Under the pieces are notes generated by a model. It was not told the DNA's origin, did no database searches, and saw nothing but the letters and a program-made list of their open reading frames with translations. A program made the position numbers and the translations under genes. Shown one piece after another: positions 6,189 to 46,160 of a stretch of DNA of 64,000 nt (position 1 is the first letter of the stretch; each line of letters starts with the position of its first letter). The stretch lies in the NCBI RefSeq assembly GCF_000317555.1, contig NC_019745.1:2294001-2358000 (forward strand), read 5' to 3'. Source of the DNA: Gloeocapsa sp. PCC 7428. GTDB taxonomy: Bacteria > Cyanobacteriota > Cyanobacteriia > Cyanobacteriales > Chroococcidiopsidaceae.

Positions 6189-6758
6189 TTAGTCGGGATT
6201 TTGCGGATGTAAGCGATCGTTTTCCCAAGCGATAGGGTTCATTTGGATGTAATGACGTACTCTTGGTAACGATGATTTGTCGTGAATAATGCGTTCGTAA
6301 TAATTTTTTTGCCAAACAGGGGTTTTGGGGGCGCTGCGGATAATGTTGATGCGTTTGGTGGCGGCGGATTTGAATGAACCAATCATCGTGGGTAATGATC
6401 CTGGAATTGGTTTGCCGAATTTACCCTGGTAGGGACATGGCATTGCCATGTCCCTACCGTCATTGGTTATTGCCATGTCCCTACCGTTGTTGGTTATCAT
6501 CAAAATTCCATGAACGTGATTGGGCATTACCACAAATGCATCTAATTGAACTCTGGAAAAATGTTGTGGAATTTGTTGCCAACATTCTGCTACAATTTGT
6601 CCATACGCATTTAACTCCATGACCCCGTTTCTAATTACTCCAAACAAACATCTTCGTTGATGTGTACAGATTGTAATAAAATAGGCACCTACTGAAGAGT
6701 AATCATATCCTTTTAGGCGAATTGAGCGGCGATGGTGTTTTTCAGGATCGTATTTCAT
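6189..6758 (-). CDS. REP-associated tyrosine transposase (RAYT, Y1/HUH family)
   Basis: The 189-residue protein has the RAYT pattern. It starts RRSIRLKGYDYSSVGAYFIT, followed by ICTHQRRCLFG, the HUH metal site in VVMPNHVHGILM (about 76-87), and the C-terminal YYERIIHDKSSLPRVRHYI with the nucleophilic tyrosine region. RAYTs are single-strand DNA transposases that excise or copy REP palindromes. Residues about 88-110 are an insertion relative to relatives. It is encoded by a 15-bp palindrome plus a 27-nt tandem duplication, giving NGRDMAIT-NDGRDMAM. The insertion keeps the frame, so the protein may still work. It is convergent with dapL. Confidence 0.85.
   Translation of the reverse strand: MKYDPEKHHRRSIRLKGYDYSSVGAYFITICTHQRRCLFGVIRNGVMELNAYGQIVAECWQQIPQHFSRVQLDAFVVMPNHVHGILMITNNGRDMAITNDGRDMAMPCPYQGKFGKPIPGSLPTMIGSFKSAATKRINIIRSAPKTPVWQKNYYERIIHDKSSLPRVRHYIQMNPIAWENDRLHPQNPD
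6428..6495. repeat. REP-like palindrome and 27-nt tandem repeat inside the RAYT gene
   Basis: GGTAGGGACATGGCA (6428-6442) and TGCCATGTCCCTACC (6444-6458) form a perfect 15-bp inverted repeat with a 1-nt loop. A 27-nt unit starting ATTGCCATGTCCCTACCGT occurs at 6442-6468 and again at 6469-6495 with two mismatches. Both preserve the reading frame of the RAYT. Confidence 0.9.
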
Positions 6759-8305: not shown

Positions 8306-8841
8306 TATTTGGTATCAGCCTATACTGTAATTAATTTAATCAATAAATAAAAGTCTAAACTGAGCAGGAAGCAAAACGTTATACAATCTGTGATTCACCC
8401 CATCTTAGTGTCAGTGGTTAGTGATTAGTGAACTAGACAATACTTATTTAAAAGTTAGAAACACCAATAGACTTCTTGCATGAATCACAAACGCCCTCTG
8501 ACTGAAGTCAGGGGCTACTCAAGCAAAGTGTACTTTCGTACATTGAAGCAAGACTTTTATCAATAAGTTCACATTGGTAGATTGTCTGATGTTGCTGAAT
8601 AGGAGTATGATTTGCCCCCTTATCTCAACTCTGGGGGAATCAAATTTTTCAAAGTCCCTCACGTGTGGGGAGCCACTGCGTTGCGGAGGTGTCCTCCGTT
8701 GTAGCAAGTGGCGTGGATTTAGGGGGCTTATACAAGTGCGGTTGCTTAACGATTCATACATTGATTCAGCGATGCCAGATTGTCTTTTGTTTGGCTGCGA
8801 ATTTATTCGTCAAGCATTCATGCAGGAGGTTTAATTACCAG
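8306..8841. other. intergenic region rich in small repeats
   Basis: No convincing gene is seen in 536 bases. The region holds a TTAGTGATTAGTGA direct repeat (about 8416-8430), the hairpin CTGACTGAAGTCAG (8499-8512), a CCCCC/GGGGG palindrome family block at about 8608-8672, the 42-nt palindromic element at 8673-8714 (listed separately), and the GTTACCAATTACC repeat at 8839-8851. Short open frames here have repeat-derived sequence and no family resemblance. Confidence 0.5.
8673..8714. repeat. 42-nt palindromic element, intergenic copy
   Basis: It starts CCACTGCGTTGC and ends GCAAGTGGCGT. It folds with outer arm CCACT/AGTGG and inner arm GGAGG-TGT-CCTCC. It has the same length and layout as the element inserted at 43361-43402, with base changes in the outer arm that preserve pairing (CCACT/AGTGG here, CCAGT/ACTGG there). 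Confidence 0.8.
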
Positions 8842-32160: not shown

Positions 32161-32718
32161 TCAATACAACCAGCTACGATATTCTGCATTGGTGTTTTTC
32201 ATGTCTTCGTACAGCCAAACCATACGGTCTATAAACCACAGTTTGCCAAGATAAACAACGACGTTTCCTAGCAGTGTAGACCAAATATTGAAAGTAACTA
32301 AACCATAAATAATGAATAGCACACCCGTAGTAGAAACAATACTGAGAATACTAGGTATGCGGCGATGATGCTCTGGTACAGGAATTTTATCTCGGTTTAA
32401 CCAAACGCGCTCGCCAAGTACAGCTTTTGCAGCCTAGTTATTCTCTTGAAAACTTTCCTCAACGCGGGGAACCCGCGCACGGAAGTTTCCGCTTGTTGAA
32501 GCGGGTGGCGGGAAAATTCGTGGATTTATCCACATCCAGACAACTACTATGCTAATCGGAACGAGCGATCGCCAACCCAACCAAGCACGGCTCCAAATTG
32601 CCAGGATGAGTAGCGGTAAAACTGTAAACCGCGTCCAAACACTCCAAGGATTAGCATGACGTGCCCAAGTATCATCACTCATGCTAAAGGCGGCTGCGAT
32701 TTTGCTTTCTAGAGTCAT
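32161..32718 (-). pseudogene. DUF6653-like membrane protein, interrupted by a 51-nt repeat and an amber codon
   Basis: The first part reads MTLESKIAAAFSMSDDTWAR..., with membrane helices at about 29-42 and 48-64, up to INPRIFPPPAST. Then 17 foreign residues (SGNFRARVPRVEESFQE) lead to NN and TAG (32434-32436). Past the stop the same frame continues AAKAVLGERVWLNRDKIPVP and two more helices to TGA at 32161-32163. Family members have a tryptophan (TGG) where this TAG stands. So a 51-nt in-frame insert (32443-32493) plus a nonsense change disrupt the gene. The fold is that of a small four-helix protein of unknown function (DUF6653 from memory). Confidence 0.75.
32443..32493. repeat. 51-nt palindromic repeat inserted in the DUF6653 gene
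   Basis: The central stem is CGCGGGGAACCCGCG. Flanking arms GAAAACTTTCC and GGAAGTTTCC are also self-complementary. Removing 51 nt restores a continuous protein (PPPAST-NN). GCGGGTTCCCCGCGTTGAGG-type repeats are familiar from filamentous cyanobacteria. Confidence 0.75.
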
Positions 32719-42920: not shown

Positions 42921-43795
42921 TTAAGCGACTAATCGTTTAACCATGAGACGAATTAAGGAGCCATAAATCATCGCTTCACTTAGCTCTGAATACATCTCGT
43001 AATCCTTGCTCAAGCGTCGAAATCGATTGAGCCATCCAAACGTTCGCTCCACAATCCAACGCTTCGGCAACTGTTCAAACGTTTGGGAGGTTCGCTCAAT
43101 CACGTCCACTCGTACCGTCTGACCACACACCTGTCTGACCGCATTGACAAAATTCTTGCCAGAATATCCCTGGTCTACCCAGACAACCTCTAAGTTGGAC
43201 AACTTTTCCTTGGCTTCATCAAGCACAACGATTGCCCCTAATCGTTCTGAAGCATTGGCTTCAGTGACCAGTACACCAATCACGAATTCTTGCGAATCGA
43301 CGACGACATGACGCTTACGTCCTTTAACCTTTTTGCCACCATCGAAACCGTAGACCTCCCACGCCAGTTGCTACAGCGGGGGGAACCCTCGCAACGCACT
43401 GGCTCCCTTTTTTCCGTTGTTTTGACGGATTGAGAGTCCGCAATAGCAACGGTAGACTGTTGATCTCGACCGATGTTTGTTCGCAATTGTTGACGTACTT
43501 GGTCGTGCATTTTTTGCCAAATACCTTTGCGTTGCCATTTCTGAAAGTAGTGGTACACCGTGCTGTAAGGGGGAAGGTCATGAGGCATCATTTCCCATTG
43601 GCACCCCGTACGTTGGACATAGAAAATCCCATTGAGAATTTCCCTGAAATCAACTTCCACTGGATGACCAAATCCTTTGGGTTGGGGCACCATCTGCTTC
43701 AATATCTCCCACTCGGCATCTCTCAAGTCACTGGCGTATGGCTTGCGTTTAGAATTGGCAATTTCAGGCCGACGAGTCATCACTAATGCAACCAT
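42921..43795 (-). pseudogene. IS5-family transposase interrupted by a 42-nt palindrome
   Basis: The N-terminal part runs MVALVMTRRPEIANSKRKPY ... IFYVQRTGCQWEMMPHDLPP ... VAIADSQSVKTTEKRE (first catalytic D). The C-terminal part is in another frame: VYGFDGGKKVKGRKRHVVVD, VVWVDQGYSGKNF (second D) and WIVERTFGWLNRFRRL (E). Between them 47 nt (42 plus a 5-bp duplication) break the frame. Removing the insert rejoins KRE-VYGFDGG perfectly. So the transposase is complete except for this insertion, which must be recent. Confidence 0.88.
43356..43407. repeat. 42-nt palindromic element with 5-bp target duplication
   Basis: On the minus strand the element runs CCAGTGCGTTGCGAGG ... AGCAACTGGCGT (43402 down to 43361), flanked on both sides by GGGAG (43356-43360 and 43403-43407 on the plus strand as CTCCC). 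The outer arms CCAGT/ACTGG and inner arms GCGAGGG/CCCCCGC pair. Its relative is at 8673-8714. Confidence 0.85.
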
Positions 43796-44924: not shown

Positions 44925-45100
44925 TATTGACATCCTCCCTACCCTGCTTACGCAGAGGGTAGGGATTCCCTAAGTCCGTTTGCGTTGCGACGACTTAGGT
45001 TTTACGGTTCCTGCTTCATTGCACCCGCCTATGTCCTTAGAGGATTTCGGTCTTACGGTCGCTCCACAGGCTGTCACGGTCTGCCCGACCGCCAAAAGGT
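44925..45100 (-). ncRNA. candidate omega RNA of TnpB
   Basis: In this family the guide RNA overlaps the 3' end of tnpB and the right end, with the guide taken from flanking DNA. The right-end hairpin (CCCTACCC/GGGTAGGG) and the tail GGATGTCAATAC fit that location. The guide would start at or near the boundary at 44925, reading outwards on the minus strand. Boundaries are inferred from the family, not seen directly. Confidence 0.35.
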
Positions 45101-46160
45101 TCACTGCCGCATTGATGTCTCGGTCGTGATGAGTGTTACACTTTGGGCAATCCCACTCCCGCACATTGAGCGGCATTTTGGGAGAAATGTACCCGCAGTT
45201 TGAGCAGCGTTTGGAACTGGGAAACCACTGATCCACCTGAATCAGGTTCCGTCCATACCATTGCGCTTTGTACTCTAACTGCCTCACCAATTCTCCCCAA
45301 CTGGCATCGGAGATTGCCTGAGTGAGTTTGTGGTTTTGCATCATGCCTTTCACATTCAACGATTCAACCACAATCGTTTGATTTTCACGAATGAGTTGAG
45401 TCGTTGTTTTATGTAAATGATCCTTGCGGATATTAGCAATGTGAGCATGATGTTTTGCAAGCTTTAACCTCGCCTTGCGCCGGTTGTTTGACCCTTTTTC
45501 TTTGCGCGATAGCGACTTTTGAAGCTGTTTTAATTTCTTCAGTGCCTTGCGTAAAGAGTTTGGATTGGCAACCTTAGTACCATCGCTTCCCGTGACGAGG
45601 GTAGAAACGCCCATGTCTAGCCCAATTTCTTGAGTAGAGCGAGGTAGAGGCAGAATCTTAATGTCACACAGAATTGAGACGAACCATTTCCCGTCTGGGG
45701 TTAGCCGCACCGTCACACTGGAGGGATCAGCATTGCGAGGAAGCTGACGGCTCCAGCGAACTGCAAGTGGCTCACTACACTTTGCCAGATAGAGCTTGCC
45801 ATCTTTCCAGCTAAAGGCAGCACGGGTAAACGTGGCAGATCCGCCATTGCGCTTCTTTTTGAATTGCGGGTAACTTGCCCGTTTCTCAAAAAAGTTCGTG
45901 TAGGCAGACTGCAAGTGCCTCAAGCACTGCTGCAATGGAACGCTGGACACTTCATTGAGGAAACTTAAATCCTCCTGTTTCTTCCATTGCGTCAATGCAG
46001 CAGAGGTCTGGTTATAGCCAATGCGCTCACCGTTGTAAAACGACTCGGTACGATAGGCAAGAGCTTTGTTGTACACAAGCCGCACACAGCCAACCGTCCG
46101 CCGCAACAGGTTTTCCTGTGCAGGCGTAGGATAGAATCGGTAGCGAAAGGCTTTTTCCAT
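44970..46160 (-). CDS. tnpB: RNA-guided endonuclease TnpB
   Basis: The 396-residue protein has the N-terminal helix-turn-helix/wedge region (FRYRFYPTPAQENLLRRTVG), the RuvC residues D182 (IGLDMGVSTLV), E266 (IVVESLNVKGM) and D348 (HHDRDINAAVN), and the zinc finger CSNCG (319-323) / CPKC (338-341). All catalytic positions are intact. It is read away from the adjacent histidine kinase gene. TnpB cuts target DNA next to a TAM, guided by the omega RNA, and helps retain the element. Confidence 0.95.
   Translation of the reverse strand: MEKAFRYRFYPTPAQENLLRRTVGCVRLVYNKALAYRTESFYNGERIGYNQTSAALTQWKKQEDLSFLNEVSSVPLQQCLRHLQSAYTNFFEKRASYPQFKKKRNGGSATFTRAAFSWKDGKLYLAKCSEPLAVRWSRQLPRNADPSSVTVRLTPDGKWFVSILCDIKILPLPRSTQEIGLDMGVSTLVTGSDGTKVANPNSLRKALKKLKQLQKSLSRKEKGSNNRRKARLKLAKHHAHIANIRKDHLHKTTTQLIRENQTIVVESLNVKGMMQNHKLTQAISDASWGELVRQLEYKAQWYGRNLIQVDQWFPSSKRCSNCGYISPKMPLNVREWDCPKCNTHHDRDINAAVNLLAVGQTVTACGATVRPKSSKDIGGCNEAGTVKPKSSQRKRT

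Follow-up and report, generated by a model that had tools for sequence, protein, structure and literature searches.

A 45-nt hairpin in an IS5-family transposase gene of Gloeocapsa sp. PCC 7428 and its probable mobility among cyanobacteria

The DNA stretch analysed here (64,000 nt, the window, corresponding to C1:2294001-2358000 in the 5.88-Mb genome of Gloeocapsa sp. PCC 7428) carries, inside a gene for an IS5-family transposase, one copy of a 45-nt non-coding hairpin with its own ends, AC...TC. This hairpin is probably a mobile element dispersed in cyanobacteria that landed in the IS5 gene. Copies enter without duplication or loss of target sequence, mostly just 5' of C-Y-C and bringing their own ends along. 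Since the element has no gene of its own, it would be moved in trans, by way of a folded single strand.

The copy in the transposase gene

The copy in the window belongs to subfamily I (ACGCC...GGCTC) and occupies positions 43361-43405 of the plus strand (model R1, 69.9 bits, E 2.2e-16), its net length being taken from the IS5 relatives described below; a placement at 43360-43404 is equally possible, because the preceding base is also a C. Covariation and folding identify an outer stem, in which the 5' arm GCCAGT (43363-43368, plus) pairs with the 3' arm ACTGGC (43398-43403, plus), two further outer-stem pairs between 43370-43371 and 43396-43397, and an inner stem CGGGGG/CCCTCG with the loop GAA (43377-43391, plus). 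Without the outer arms, the core comprises about 28 nt. When the stretch 43356-43407 was folded as RNA, it formed a hairpin of -24.1 kcal/mol that none of 200 shuffled sequences equalled; folded as DNA, it reached -11.5 kcal/mol, and 8 of 200 shuffles did as well.

The host gene is read from the minus strand in two frames. The N-terminal frame (43283-43795), which runs into the element, matches positions 2-115 of NF033580 as well as PF13340, and the C-terminal, DDE-containing frame (42921-43283, from the ORF finder) matches positions 141-257 of NF033580, PF01609, and PF13586, in agreement with the earlier assignment of this gene to the IS5 family. That first-pass annotation had described a palindromic 42-nt element flanked by a 5-bp target duplication. 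The discrete insertion and its hairpin structure stand, and the pentamer CTCCC does occur at 43356-43360 and again at 43403-43407, with 42 nt in between. The length of 42 nt and the duplication have to be given up.

Both revisions follow from a comparison with 62 IS5 loci besides the window, taken from the same genome, the family, and other genomes. Both protein anchors were found in 20 of these, and the remaining 42 were left out (one of them, L040, has the same 13-nt C/T tract). The interval between the anchors is 14 nt in 17 of the 20 informative relatives and 13, 15, and 64 nt in the other three, the last value being due to a different hairpin carried there. In the window copy the interval is 59 nt, so that the net insert is 45 nt and not 47 nt, and the insertion point is CCC^CC. 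The first CTCCC (43356-43360, plus) is the left target flank, which matches the C-tract of the IS5 relatives, while the second (43403-43407, plus) consists of the element end CTC (43403-43405) followed by two target C residues; other copies of the element likewise end in CTC. A second IS5 relative of the same genome (L019, G000:C2:126145-126274) has no insert and an anchor interval of 13 nt.

Removal of the 42 nt together with one pentamer had appeared to rejoin the transposase exactly (KRE-VYGFDGG), which proves to be an artefact. In all five IS5 relatives inspected, the two halves of the transposase are offset by -1 frame at A_AAA_AAG (in one of these, L037, the second frame is also interrupted, after 56 codons), and a two-frame (-1) arrangement is known for part of the IS5 family. 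Because of this natural offset, a 47-nt deletion, which takes out 2 nt too many, keeps an open frame. The shifted frame of the window copy runs into a TAG inside the insert (KKGASALRGFPPL and stop), and the element thus adds a stop to it. The C-tract that the element entered is the complement of the putative frameshift site of the IS5-family transposase. Another relative of the same IS5 type (L039, in G018:C76) carries a hairpin about 50 nt long that differs from the 45-nt element (GATGGCTTCCTTGC.../GCAAGGAAGCCATC, present as a single copy in G018) at the same tract, which may be a common target for hairpin insertions.

Copies, covariation, and insertion sites

A simple pattern of the element ends matched the genome at 17 places; by eye, 13 of these were judged to be the same element, and the reversed control pattern matched nowhere. 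A covariance model built from 20 copies found at least 104 matches in the same genome at E<=1, of which at least 78 at E<=0.001. (All copy numbers are lower bounds, 150 candidates per genome having been scored in the source genome and its family and 32 per genome in the phylum.) The view of a discrete, small, non-coding palindromic element that is unable to encode its own mover holds up, and the element has many further copies in the genome. In the window, a second clear copy with the arms GCCACT/AGTGGC (8670-8714, minus; 69.4 bits, E 3e-16) sits inside a miniature inverted-repeat transposable element (MITE)-like repeat; a hairpin that is related but belongs to a different subfamily (TGAAAACTTTCC.../GGAAGTTTCCG), with two pairs that are non-standard in the model, lies at 32447-32491 (plus; 33.6 bits, E 1.2e-6), and there is a weak match to the model at 2531-2573. 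Copies were found in 14 of the 19 genomes of the family, which include Chroococcidiopsis thermalis PCC 7203 and the source genome itself (12 of 14 among the good genomes), and, under stricter filters, in 23 of the 194 genomes of a phylum-wide sample, the source genome included, all of them from one order. The model also matched 12 plasmid records, all cyanobacterial. The phage collection contained no match to the 45-nt element, and four viral contigs that matched a loose pattern were dismissed as chance hits because all four share one sequence, which is a repeated coding region. In four loci with element copies, the Rfam covariance models gave no matches at E<=1.

In several copies (L115-L118, L124, L128, L140, and others), the loop is longer by about 33 nt (GACTCGGGGACCCCACGTAGTGGGGATTGGGGGT), apparently through the insertion of another hairpin, and the matches extend to 77-79 nt. 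Related hairpins also lie within annotated genes on plasmid pCHRO.01 of C. thermalis (L242) and plasmid6 of Aulosira laxa (L249), which encode, respectively, a DUF3987 protein and a hypothetical protein; the reading frames of both genes are open through the hairpin.

The stems are maintained by compensatory changes. Among the 20 copies, 7 of the 14 stem pairs have changed on both sides, a value that was not reached in any of 500 shuffles. In a set of 83 distinct rows, in an alignment that had been fitted to the structure, 94.4% of the cells pair and double changes affect 11 of the 14 pairs; this pair count was reached in 2 of 500 shuffles, and none reached the other measures. The outer arms differ between copies as whole units (GCCAGT/ACTGGC, GCCACT/AGTGGC, GCGAGT/ACTCGC, GGACACT/AGTGTCC, and TGGAAACT/AGTTTCC), whereas the internal loop and the core (CAACGG...CCGCAC or CCGCAAC) are mostly constant. 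Such covariation of the arms means that one single strand must fold at some stage. Wobble cells (33 G-T versus 18 A-C) are few and not independent, which makes them a weak test of which strand is functional.

The insertion sites were compared in 86 subfamily-I copies, the other 34 of 120 non-redundant rows, which belong to other subfamilies or failed the end filter, having been left out. The terminal TC is not independent evidence here, because it was part of the row filter. The trinucleotide CYC immediately follows the 3' end of the element in 61 of the 86 copies and occurs in at most 15 of 86 at 29 other right-hand offsets. In the left flank, it is found in 30 of 86 copies at -3 and in 33 of 86 at -11, showing that the flanks are C/T-rich in general. 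A 5-nt duplication of the kind originally proposed is seen in 1 of the 86, namely, the copy in the IS5 gene of the window. Plain flank repeats amount to 3 nt in 11 of 86 copies, 7 nt in 4 (read as heptad arrays), and 9 nt in 1, with none of 4, 5, 6, or 8 nt.

Empty sites of several kinds (IS5, the MITE-like repeat, a plasmid pair, arrays, and nested copies) give identical ends without duplication. The MITE-like repeat, whose ends are CCCCCTAAATCC...GGGGGACTTTGA, is found in the window at 8600-8740 and at L058, L059, L067, L079, L141, and other loci, and often contains the hairpin. Its 11 occupied contexts compare with 4 empty forms that read CCCCCTAAATCC^CCCA, all in loci of the source genome. 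A plasmid of Sphaerospermopsis and one of Dolichospermum differ by a 45-nt gap. In perfect arrays, 4 of 7 copies (L095, L055, L085, and L102) fit the stated ends uniquely, L092 gives a tie, and a better fit is obtained elsewhere for L065 and L104. Nested copies were tested on the 11 that passed the filter, further visible ones being uncounted: of the subfamily-I copies, 5 of 7 agree with the stated ends and 2 deviate by one position, and four cases in another subfamily tie at, or favour, two more bases, read as extra left-end bases of that subfamily. Two candidate comparisons were set aside. The one between T. variabilis and Nostoc HK-01 was rejected as an empty site because the match covers positions 1-273 of the query and stops before the site, and the gap between Nostoc ATCC 53789 and C057 is uninformative on the ends because it is larger and extends into the element. 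Other copies without a flanking duplication, which the first-pass annotation had itself named as speaking against its proposal, were thus encountered with the IS5 relatives, at several kinds of empty site, and among the 86 copies compared.

Candidate routes of movement

The geometry alone favours a single-strand DNA route through a Y1-type (HUH, IS200/IS605-type) transposase, which on these grounds is a plausible, if tentative, candidate. Read on the strand GAGCC...GGCGT, the element has its preferred target, GRG, outside the 5' side, no specific conservation outside the 3' side, and no duplication. Matches to Y1_Tnp, some of them fragments, were found in each of the 14 family genomes that carry the element and in 3 of the 5 that do not, a distribution that is compatible with this route but does not discriminate. 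The two best Y1 loci of the source genome (L043 and L044) contain no hairpin copy at E<=0.01, which speaks against this route, as does the absence of chromosomal strand bias from the 71 typed positions on contig C1 (drawn from the 104 matches and merged to 67): 34 copies lie on the plus and 33 on the minus strand, and the two-arc contrast was reached in 999 of 2000 permutations. The window also has a 396-aa ORF (44970-46160, minus), which by eye resembles a TnpB (IS605 OrfB) protein.

The window contains a RAYT (6189-6758, minus; NF047646, 63 bits, below the cut-off of 80), which had been put forward as a possible mover. Of the 14 family genomes that carry the element, 7 have no relative of this protein at E<=1e-5, and 2 of the 5 genomes without the element do have one, in a survey that addressed relatives of the window RAYT and may have missed other subclasses. 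Its ORF contains a palindrome, GGTAGGGACATGGC/GCCATGTCCCTACC (6428-6458), that is quite different from the 45-nt hairpin; a palindrome inside the gene is described for subclass 2.4 of TnpA-REP in section 23 of PMC6006769. Given the occurrence pattern and the different palindrome, this RAYT is unlikely to be the mover, and a Y1/HUH enzyme of another kind may fill that role. Transposition by DDE enzymes normally leaves a target duplication, and the lack of one argues against the DDE enzyme that had been suggested as the other option. The original proposal as a whole, in which the window RAYT or a DDE enzyme moved a 42-nt element that produced a 5-bp target duplication, can point to CTCCC on either side and an in-frame join, at one site. 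With the duplication in a single copy of 86, a 45-nt rather than 47-nt insert by the IS5 relatives, and half of the element-bearing genomes lacking the RAYT, whose own palindrome differs, it now appears highly improbable.

Reportedly, Elhai and colleagues proposed for the small dispersed repeats of cyanobacteria an RNA-copy route, in which a transcript folds and is copied by a reverse transcriptase into DNA at nicks. Such a route would agree with a structure kept by compensatory changes, with the lack of duplication, and with the slight excess of G-T over A-C cells, although these cells are few and non-independent. However, RVT_1 was not found at E<=0.001 in the source genome or in G011, G012, G013, and G016, which carry at least 78, 37, 24, 40, and 26 copies, respectively, and it was found in 4 of the 5 element-free genomes of the family. 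With five copy-rich genomes devoid of a match, RVT_1 as a necessary partner is unsupported, and we regard the RNA-copy route as unlikely. Much the same standing is given to replication-based spread without a dedicated enzyme, by which a polymerase stalled at the hairpin would switch templates at short C/T-rich matches: many copies do lie within heptad arrays and other copies of the element, and the element end CTC resembles the CYC target, but template switching is expected to yield variable lengths, whereas similar ends and a similar unit length are seen at many sites in several genomes, also outside arrays. That the hairpin is a passenger, spreading solely inside larger repeats such as MITE-like elements and heptad arrays, would account for the MITE-like left flank that 11 distinct contexts have in common and for the right flank CTGAAGCTGCCTATTTGTAG in many rows. 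Yet the MITE-like repeat also exists in four forms without the hairpin, the hairpin occurs at unrelated places, such as coding genes and the IS5 gene of the window, and for the latter copy the empty IS5 relatives rule this explanation out, leaving it with very little probability overall.

The preferred reading is still that of a dispersed hairpin that inserts cleanly and is mobilised in trans. In one more specific form, the hairpin would be recognised by its core and internal loop while its arms drift, with compensating changes, into subfamilies that differ in their tags, and unnamed machinery acting in trans, neither a RAYT of the window type nor RVT_1, would insert it exactly before C-Y-C and without duplication; this form is possible but rather doubtful. 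As for the route itself, an unknown or replication-based one deserves serious consideration short of preference, alongside the Y1-type route.

Relation to known repeats and mobile elements

The small dispersed repeats (SDR) of cyanobacteria, reportedly described by Elhai et al. in 2008 (Genome Res 18:1484), are said to be tiny mobile repeats of 21-27 nt that share a hairpin with compensatory changes, reside in heptad arrays, mini-transposons, and one another, and are confined to one cyanobacterial group. As far as these reported features go, the 45-nt element resembles the SDRs in its covarying hairpin, in its settings (heptad arrays, larger repeats, and self-nesting), and in its restriction to a coherent group of cyanobacteria (23 of 194 genomes, one order). 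Its unit length of 45 nt is greater than theirs, although with a core of about 28 nt the count may depend on definition, and no RVT_1 partner for the RNA route reportedly proposed for SDRs was found in its genome. On these reported features, the element is provisionally assigned to the SDR kind, as a new member. A passage in PMC4390886 mentions precise insertion of SDR5 into HIP1, and one in PMC3733652, citing Elhai, refers to REP-like sequences of cyanobacteria that have no conserved motifs at their termini, a remark that fits the 45-nt element. Literature searches listed no paper on the element itself.

With REP/RAYT systems, the element shares short repeated non-coding hairpins, the lack of target duplication, and the presence of a RAYT gene in the window. 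However, it has neither of the terminal tags GTAG and CGTC (given for REP/RAYT in a passage of PMC3733652) at the foot of the hairpin, GTAG occurring only within its reverse strand, and its occurrence does not track the RAYT gene, whose palindrome differs. MITEs moved by DDE enzymes, for example, IS5-derived ones, are likewise small, non-coding, bounded by inverted repeats, and moved in trans, and the element differs from them in its missing target duplication and its length of 45 nt; no parent element came to light among the loci examined. Membership in the tagged REP/RAYT systems and in the DDE MITEs fails on the tested features. Elements of the IS200/IS605 type insert without duplication beside a short target, and their hairpins are recognised as single strands. 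The 45-nt element has in common with these the duplication-free entry and the one-sided short target (CYC in 61 of 86 copies); it differs in having no gene and in consisting entirely of a single hairpin, and the two Y1 loci scanned contain no copy.

Two warnings follow for the interpretation of such insertions: where the end of an element is similar to its target, the result may be mistaken for a target-site duplication, and where a frameshift site is present, an incorrect excision may appear exact. To our knowledge, hairpins of 45 nt are among the smallest mobile elements. Several kinds of empty site define their ends, the length of the unit, and a rule for the target, which makes the question of what moves them testable: any enzyme put forward as the mover has to work without producing a duplication and to make its join between X and CYC.
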